A DNA stretch of 64,000 nt, taken from positions 1-64,000 of the forward strand of contig JABHNB010000016.1 in the NCBI GenBank assembly GCA_018694115.1, in the 5' to 3' direction. Below, piece after piece: positions 39,787-53,647 of this stretch (positions are counted from its first letter, which is position 1; each line of letters begins with the position of its first letter). Under the pieces are notes generated by a model, which was given only the letters and a program-made list of their open reading frames with translations, ran no database searches and was not told the DNA's origin. The DNA is from an archaeon. Lineage in GTDB: Archaea; Nanobdellota; Nanobdellia; Pacearchaeales; GW2011-AR1. Position numbers and translations under genes: made by a program.

Positions 39787-39858
39787 GCCTATGTAGCTCA
39801 GTTGATAGAGCGCAACACTCGTAATGTTGAGGTCGTCGGTTTGATCCCGGCCATAGGC
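39787..39858 (+). tRNA. tRNA-Thr (anticodon CGU) with A19 and U56
   Basis: The acceptor is GCCTATG/CATAGGC and the anticodon loop CTCGTAA gives CGT (Thr, ACG codon). All stems pair. The T-loop reads TTTGATC, so position 56 is U instead of the near-universal C, and the D-loop AGTTGATA has A at position 19 instead of G. The two bases pair in the tertiary elbow, so the change is compensatory. No CCA is encoded. A tRNA-derived element follows. Confidence 0.92.
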
Positions 39859-39957
39859 TTAAATTGAGATCAAATTTTGATTCCGAGCAATTCGCTTTCT
39901 TGAAATAAATTTCAACATATTTTCAAGAAAGCGAATTGTAAGCAGGCCATAGGCTTA
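39849..39957 (+). mobile_element. tRNA-3'-end-flanked palindromic element, Thr copy
   Basis: GGCCATAGGCTTA at the tRNA end (39849-39861) recurs at 39945-39957. In between lie GATCAAA and TTTGAT, an inverted then direct copy of the T-arm, and a perfect 18-bp inverted repeat (39888-39905 with 39921-39938; 15-nt loop). The core begins CAATTCGC and ends GCGAATTG. The far repeat contains the stop codon of the convergent gene. No ORF. Confidence 0.65.
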
Positions 39958-52944: not shown

Positions 52945-52960
52945 CAGCGTTGACAAGCTG
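52945..52960 (-). promoter_or_regulatory. Possible degenerate operator before the winged-helix gene
   Basis: On the minus strand CTTGTCAACGCTGTTAAGG resembles the GTTAACGC operator with a one-base change. It lies about 40 nt upstream of the regulator's ATG, and overlaps the far copy of the tRNA-Leu end. Confidence 0.3.
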
Positions 52961-53070
52961 TGGGGACGAGTCAATTCGCTTCGAGCGACTAAAGAGTATA
53001 TCACGCGAAATGCAAATTGCGAGCAAGAGGATGTAATCCTACGACTCACATTTTTCAAAAAATGTGGGGA
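52959..53070 (-). mobile_element. tRNA-3'-end-flanked palindromic element, Leu copy
   Basis: TGTGGGGA (the tRNA-Leu 3' end on the plus strand, 53063-53070) recurs at 52959-52966. Between are a 9-bp hairpin (53047-53055 with 53058-53066) reaching into the tRNA end, an imperfect inverted/direct copy of the T-arm (AGGAT...ATCCT), and a core 52972-53019 running from CAATTCGC to GCAAATTG. The core matches those at 39888 and 53569. Confidence 0.6.
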
Positions 53071-53146
53071 GGAGGATTCGAACCCCCGTAGGCAAAAAGC
53101 CACAGCCGCTTAAAGGCTGCCCGTTTGGCCGCTCCGGCATCCCCAC
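53064..53146 (-). tRNA. tRNA-Leu (anticodon UAA)
   Basis: Acceptor GTGGGGA/TCCCCAC; anticodon stem CAGCC/GGCTG with loop TTTAAGC gives TAA. Long variable arm (TGGC-TTTTT-GCCTA), standard TTCGAAT T-loop, no CCA encoded. Confidence 0.93.
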
Positions 53147-53465: not shown

Positions 53466-53539
53466 AGCGGGATGGAGCAGTCAGGTCAGCTCGTGAGGCC
53501 CATAACCTCAAGGTCGGTAGTTCAAATCTACCTCCCGCT
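53466..53539 (+). tRNA. Initiator tRNA-Met (anticodon CAU), with C33
   Basis: Acceptor AGCGGGA/TCCCGCT with A1:U72 is the archaeal initiator signature. The anticodon stem is TGAGG/CCTCA and the loop CCCATAA, so the anticodon is CAT and position 33 is C instead of the near-universal U. Only two of the three initiator G-C pairs (30, 31) are kept. T-loop TTCAAAT. TATA (ACTTTAAAAG) lies about 28 nt upstream. Confidence 0.9.
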
Positions 53540-53647
53540 ATTCTGAACTACCGACTGTCGGTAGCGAGCGATTCGCTTTGAGCAAGGCTATTTTCTATTT
53601 CTTGCGAGATGCAAATTGTGAGTAAAATCTACCTCCCGCTATTCTGA
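53524..53647 (+). mobile_element. tRNA-3'-end-flanked palindromic element, initiator Met copy
   Basis: A 23-nt direct repeat (AAATCTACCTCCCGCT plus ATTCTGA) occupies 53524-53546 and 53625-53647. After the first copy comes GAACTACCGAC then T then GTCGGTAG, an inverted then a direct copy of the T-arm 5' half. The core 53569-53618 runs from CGATTCGC to GCAAATTG. The far copy equals a tRNA 3' half with the core in place of TTC of its T-loop. Confidence 0.7.

Follow-up and report, generated by a model that had tools for sequence, protein, structure and literature searches.

The tRNA genes of archaea are famously split, permuted, intron-bearing and invaded, and the agents of this remodelling are largely open. 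The palindromic elements of Rickettsia, which we liken to the present case by description only, are repeats of ~100-150 bp inserted in genes, RNA genes included. In the integration of SSV1, an intact tRNA is kept together with a direct copy of its 3′ end, in the form of a 44-bp direct repeat (PMC3293823), and the casposons of Methanosarcina are large, cas1-bearing elements located at the 3′ ends of tRNA-Leu genes with a duplication of 14-15 bp (PMC6977970). Bacterial REPs measure 20-40 bp, and many of them have a GTAG or CGTC tag (PMC3733652). The mitochondrial double-hairpin or repetitive hairpin-forming elements are gene-less mobile hairpins, one case lying within a tRNA gene (PMC7813641 and works cited there).

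Here we describe hairpins lying next to the tRNA genes of a Pacearchaeota-type MAG of 0.9 Mb (16 contigs, 82.7% complete; G000). The window, that is, the whole stretch of 64,000 nucleotides that was analysed, contains copies adjoining tRNA-Leu, tRNA-Met and, as a third one, tRNA-Thr(CGT), and their features are collected in Table 1. When the window was scanned with Rfam 15 at gathering scores, the tRNAs were the only matches, and the cores matched no known RNA family. All the genomes compared throughout this work were MAGs.

Table 1. Features of the three tRNA-linked copies, in window positions.
Feature	Position	Strand	Basis
Intact tRNA-Leu(TAA)	53063..53146	-	ARAGORN; Rfam RF00005
Leu-copy hairpin core, antisense to its own tRNA	52966..53027	+	Covariance model R1, 51.3 bits, E 2.5e-9; training sequence of R1
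y, downstream copy of the tRNA-Leu 3′ end (CTCGTCCCCACA vs CTCCTCCCCACA)	52959..52970	-	Shift 104, score 9, alone not significant
Palindrome AGGAT-GTA-ATCCT, on the side of the core facing the intact tRNA-Leu	53028..53040	.	Sequence
Locus-specific hairpin of 9 bp that covers the last 4 nt of tRNA-Leu	53047..53066	.	Sequence
Intact tRNA-Met(CAT)	53466..53540	+	ARAGORN; Rfam RF00005
Inverted copy of the 5′ side of the tRNA-Met T-arm (TGAACTACCGAC)	53544..53555	+	Exactly reverse-complementary to GTCGGTAGTTCA over 12 nt
x (GTCGGTAG), 8 nt of the 5′ strand of the tRNA-Met T-stem, directly repeated	53557..53564	+	Flank mapping onto the intact tRNA
Met-copy hairpin core	53564..53626	+	R1, 67.3 bits, E 2.3e-13; training sequence of R1
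y (AAATCTACCTCCCGCTATTCTGA), tRNA-Met 3′ end with the first 6 nt behind it (trailer), directly repeated	53625..53647	+	Shift 101, score 24 vs shuffled maximum 10
Intact tRNA-Thr(CGT)	39787..39859	+	ARAGORN; Rfam RF00005
Thr-copy hairpin core, almost perfect palindrome	39883..39946	+	R1, E 2.2e-6, outside the R1 training set; fold z -6.5
Direct copy of the tRNA-Thr 3′ end (GGCCATAGGCTTA), 13 bp	39945..39957	+	Shift 96, score 13 vs shuffled maximum 9

The element noted first, behind tRNA-Leu, spans positions 52959-53070. The original prediction read it as an inserted element with a conserved core, and this reading was supported by the multiple alignment of cores that it had proposed: run on 26 and then on 105 copies, it gave strong similarity and covariation instead of a loss of resemblance between cores. 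What the prediction had not recognised was the nesting of the core in a second, partial tRNA copy (x-core-y), its nature as a covarying hairpin instead of a plain conserved sequence, and the genus-wide spread of the family. Within the Leu core (52972-53019) the two ends CAATTCGCTT...ATGCAAATTG were matched exactly, a gapped pattern expected 0.00 times in shuffled windows, and the likeness to the Met core was recovered by the covariance model, both being sequences with which the model was built. The 9-bp hairpin CACATTTTT-CA-AAAAATGTG was found as described (arms 53047-53055 and 53058-53066), overlapping the final 4 nt of tRNA-Leu and particular to this locus. The terminal repeat stood in part: TGTGGGGA at 52959-52966 does copy the antisense of the tRNA-Leu(TAA) 3′ end, but the 8-12 nt repeat taken alone is at chance (it scores 9, which is also the 95% value of the shuffled controls). 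The claim that the core keeps the same distance was approximately true, the shift from the tRNA 3′ end to the downstream copy being 89-111 bp across 11 full copies. The core also has opposite senses at the two loci, antisense to tRNA-Leu and sense to tRNA-Met, and the suggested entry in either orientation was supported by the 74 copies on the 3′ side, where 61 cores had the same sense as the tRNA and 13 were inverted.

The 39 tRNA genes located in the genome were surveyed by extracting and orienting the stretches around them. At least 11 full copies lie behind these genes, each with the same layout: the intact tRNA, a short trailer with an inverted piece of the T-arm, a left flank (x), a hairpin core of 50-70 bp and a right flank (y). 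The tRNAs followed at 89-111 bp by a copy of their own 3′ end were 11 of the 39, most of them far above shuffled controls; the longest exact repeats were those of Thr-ggt (37 nt) and Lys-ctt (36 nt), and at Leu-taa and Gly-tcc, where the repeats alone were at or near chance level, it is the core that carries the case. Repeats of at least 12 nt starting in the tRNA were found for 11 of 39 tRNAs in this genome, against 1 of 62 in two control genomes from other genera. The length of the duplication was variable, from 8 to about 69 bp, and no genes were carried by the 89-111 bp inserts between the tRNA end and its repeat. Shorter duplications lacking a core were also present at 39-44 bp behind Asn, Lys-ttt and Ile-tat. 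In a genome of another genus (G017, locus L270), a single repeat of the tRNA-Leu(TAG) end was seen, 19 bp long and at shift 88; the sequence of the hairpin there is unrelated, a hint that architecture of this type reaches beyond model R1.

By comparison with the systems described above, each of the casposon derivatives, the REP/RAYT system and the integrase att scars misses at least one tested feature. With casposons the elements share an archaeal host, a target at the 3′ end of tRNA genes, a target duplication and inverted repeats, but casposons are large, with cas1 and a duplication of 14-15 bp. As in the integration of the SSV or pNOB8 type, an intact tRNA is kept and its 3′ end is directly repeated at the other border; those elements, however, need an att site of their own, whereas here the local tRNA, often with its own trailer, is duplicated around an insert of ~100 bp, and, unlike tRNA-targeted integrative elements, the 89-111 bp inserts have no integrase gene or cargo. 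The resemblance to REP/RAYT lies in short imperfect palindromes, intergenic, dispersed and supposedly mobilised in trans, but the elements studied here are longer (50-70 bp), are flanked by the tRNA-derived x, are set in partial tRNA copies and lack the GTAG or CGTC tag. They are similar to MITEs in being short, without ORF and with terminal inverted repeats (the 50-70 bp hairpin), and differ from them in that a target-site duplication of constant length is missing. The mitochondrial hairpin elements are likewise gene-less and mobile, but organellar, and we know of no report in which they leave behind an intact tRNA and an x-core-y partial copy. In the open-access literature, whose coverage is incomplete, no earlier description of a hairpin within a partial tRNA was found, and the novelty of the pattern is provisional.

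The core is an imperfect stem-loop of 50-70 nt, formed by two imperfect inverted arms (GARCAATTYGCTT... and ...GARATGCAAATTGYGA) without any ORF, and its conserved ends are YGAR... and ...GYGARYA. A first alignment of about 60 columns joined 6 cores of the genome with 20 retrieved by pattern from 84,980 genomes, every one of the latter being in Nanoarchaeota or Pacearchaeota-type or unclassified archaeon MAGs. In these 26 independently aligned cores, 93.7% of the cells were paired and 47 were double-changed against 15 in shuffled alignments, slid registers giving less than 55% of pairing. With 97 distinct copies, 95.5% of the cells were paired and 282 were double-changed, compared with 80 after shuffling and no more than 51 after sliding; this alignment had been fitted to the model and is biased in its favour. 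We rejected stability as a proof of structure, since fold z-scores were ordinary for most copies, including two cores of the window (+1.3 and -0.4), and it is the covariation that bears the argument. Tandem G.A mismatches form two motifs, one at the base of the stem and one in its middle, that were nearly invariant on one strand; a reading of them as kink-turns was discarded because the strand that should carry the 3-nt bulge does not. The motifs stay on their strand even in cores antisense to the tRNA, and are therefore features of the element rather than of the tRNA transcript. G.T pairs exceeded A.C pairs (76 vs 30), which points to selection on the G.A-motif strand as a single strand. An archaeal tRNA intron was also dismissed, as inspection by eye revealed no BHB motif and the mapped copies have an intact tRNA next to them.

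The junctions were mapped by aligning the core-abutting bases of 83 copies near tRNAs to the neighbouring intact tRNA. Of 56 clean junctions, 45 had to the left of the core an x that repeats 7-9 nt of the tRNA, with a length of 8 nt in 24; to the right, y was a tRNA copy of 9-58 nt, usually resuming 1-4 nt further on, with 3 nt replaced in 23 of the 56, and it runs to the tRNA 3′ end, often including some trailer. Both flanks were abutting and collinear in 43 of the 61 same-sense copies, against a mean of 0.4 and a maximum of 2 when tRNAs of other isotypes were paired with them. Because x and y map collinearly onto the tRNA, the core interrupts a second, partial copy of the tRNA, mostly within its T-loop, and the intact tRNA adjoins it in the mapped copies. 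Insertion points are concentrated at two places, immediately 5′ of the T-loop TTC (-22/-21) and directly behind GTTCGATT (-15 to -13). Between the intact tRNA and x, an inverted T-arm copy was detected for 12 of 39 tRNAs of the genome (1 shuffled), in 19 of 77 trailers of the same genus (0 shuffled; a set that includes a few tRNAs from G011, G012 and G091) and in 2 of 62 trailers of the control genera (0 shuffled), creating palindromes such as GTGCTGACGTCAGCAC.

A minority of the copies is found at tRNA 5′ ends, where the repeat is that of the tRNA 5′ end (Leu, with the antisense D-loop GTTTGACC, and Glu). On the 5′ side of tRNA-Arg(GCG) of G091 (L276), the core is flanked by a direct repeat of ~69 bp made of the tRNA 5′ half and the upstream region. 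Other hairpin families, for example CAATTTGCTCGAATTTT...AGAGTGAATTGTGAGTA, fill the same sites, and their x and y follow the same rules. Behind tRNA-Ile(TAT) and tRNA-Val(GAC) in the genome of the window, and in L331 of G015, a second motif is repeated, CCCGAAGGGTACTTRCGAAGYGC, which may be another hairpin family inserted likewise.

Taking into account the relationships among copies, the closest relative of a core belonged 47 times to another locus of the same genome, and only 7 times to the same tRNA in a different genome. The cores at tRNA-Arg, tRNA-Ile and tRNA-Trp of G091 were 95-97% identical, and those at Leu and Cys of G007, 91%. The movement or copying of cores from one tRNA gene to another is well supported by these sequence comparisons. 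The occupied tRNAs differ within the genus: about 14 tRNAs bear repeats in G015, where one further case consists merely of adjacent tRNA-Ser genes, but only about 2 do in G013. Arrays were also observed, of exact tandem units at Val-gac (L098) and of different and nested hairpins at Gln-ctg (L121). At L135:297-437, a complete tRNA-Ser(CGA) is placed inside the loop of a core which itself interrupts another tRNA-Ser copy. A clear flanking repeat was mostly lacking at cores away from tRNAs (G014, G021 and G091). The tRNA-distant cores L112-L114 (G014) and L159-L168 (G021) showed conserved outer flanks of their own (AATYGCAGCAAGC..GCGCGACC; TTGCCAAAGATGTCA..ATTGTTACATTACTAAAC) and no clear target duplications; they are perhaps larger composite repeats.

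Several readings of these data were weighed. A structured RNA linked to the tRNA, regulatory or involved in processing, would be kept by selection on the transcript, and the tRNA-end repeats would serve its maturation or an alternative fold with the T-arm of the tRNA. The strong covariation, the conserved G.A motifs, the one-strand excess of G.T, the bias towards the sense orientation and the anti-T-arm segments of the trailers are what such an RNA would give. We consider it rather unlikely, given that inverted copies have their structured strand in antisense to the tRNA, that the closest core relatives track the genome and not the isotype, that occupancy within the genus is patchy, that the folding energies of two window cores are unexceptional and that the elements are absent from most genera of the family. 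Template switching of replication at tRNA quasi-palindromes (tandem-inversion duplication), in which hairpins are captured by microhomology with no dedicated enzyme, would account for the palindrome formed at many cores by an inverted and then direct T-arm copy, for partial tandem duplications with repeats of variable length and for the core-less duplications at 39-44 bp. It is unlikely, however, in view of the narrow size of x with ~3 nt replaced, of hairpin ends common to several families and of the rarity of the pattern in the control genera.

Integrases classically leave an intact tRNA with its 3′ end directly repeated behind it (PMC3293823), yet scars of att sites, left by integrative elements whose tyrosine recombinase acts at tRNA 3′ ends, are very unlikely here: the repeats contain the trailer specific to the host locus, differ at every tRNA and enclose only a ~60 bp hairpin, and the PF00589 matches of the genome are limited to XerA and a protein similar to topoisomerase IB (TopIB-like). 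The contigs of IMG/VR, moreover, yielded zero cores with three patterns, a result on which a virus origin was also rejected. Miniature derivatives of casposons, moved by a Cas1-type transposase, are highly improbable in our opinion, considering that the duplications of casposons are of 14-15 bp (PMC6977970) against 8 to about 69 bp here and that the core is inside a partial tRNA copy, even if archaeal casposons target tRNA-Leu 3′ ends and have terminal inverted repeats (PMC6977970).

R1 matches were obtained in 18 of 181 genomes of the family and 4 of its 87 genera, among them 15 of the 16 genomes of the genus itself; the core-bearing relatives are listed in the database as Nanoarchaeota, Candidatus Pacearchaeota or unclassified archaeon MAGs. 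In the sequence examined there was no autonomous partner or linked transposase, and no gene enclosed by two core arms was detected within the 0.98 Mb of DNA searched for an autonomous element. Candidate enzymes were then considered one by one. The Y1 transposase of the RAYT type was rejected, as PF01797 matches are missing from most of the genus and from G000 (82.7% complete), a further difference from REP/RAYT, and so was a reverse transcriptase, with no PF00078 match in G000 nor in 14 of the 16 genomes of the genus, which sets the elements apart from RT-dependent retroelements. XerA is nearly universal among relatives and hence not diagnostic. The TopIB-like protein of this DPANN-type archaeon (358 aa; G000:C13:109258-110334, L198:5258-6334; PF01028 E 3e-17) occurs in 17 of 181 genomes and 6 of 87 genera of the family, and in a set of 56 genomes all 12 bearing it also carry elements. 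In the set of 181, six genomes outside the genus have TopIB, and only G021 among them carries elements, the other five being element-free; G091, with 28 copies of the element, is without TopIB. These last cases weaken TopIB as a firm assignment, and topoisomerase IB is a weak candidate for the mobilising enzyme.

We conclude that the elements are probably non-autonomous mobile hairpins of Pacearchaeota-type archaea, which take the T-arm of tRNAs as target and are inserted by duplication, sparing the tRNA. A protein supplied in trans would recognise the hairpin as a single strand or cruciform, the hairpin would be inserted at a T-arm-like sequence (GTTCRAnTC), and the tRNA end would be duplicated by repair or replication during insertion, so that the tRNA gene survives. 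While the x-core-y anatomy is read directly from the junctions, we infer the enzyme, the intermediate (ssDNA, dsDNA or RNA) and the order of the steps, with duplication or insertion coming first. Against mobile hairpins we counted the absence of an autonomous partner from the sequence examined, the mostly unclear flanking repeats of cores away from tRNAs, the fact that every genome is a MAG, and the duplications of 8 to about 69 bp, unlike those of most known transposases, and the intact tRNA beside the surviving copies may be explained by selection against tRNA loss alone. It is conceivable, though doubtful, that a new type of transposition operates, in which a dedicated enzyme (with the TopIB-like protein as a weak candidate) would insert the hairpin into T-arms, copy a fixed target of 8 nt, replace the TTC of the T-loop, leave the inverted T-arm copy and rebuild the tRNA end. 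If that were true, one intact tRNA would always survive and arrays of repeats and hairpins could grow.

These hairpins of ~60 nt, genus-wide and still polymorphic, offer many natural snapshots of the partial duplication of tRNAs and of array formation, with defined junctions. The x-core-y unit is a defined DNA substrate for enzyme hunting, and the hairpin family can be tested as an origin of the tRNA fragments and tandem repeats of minimal DPANN genomes.
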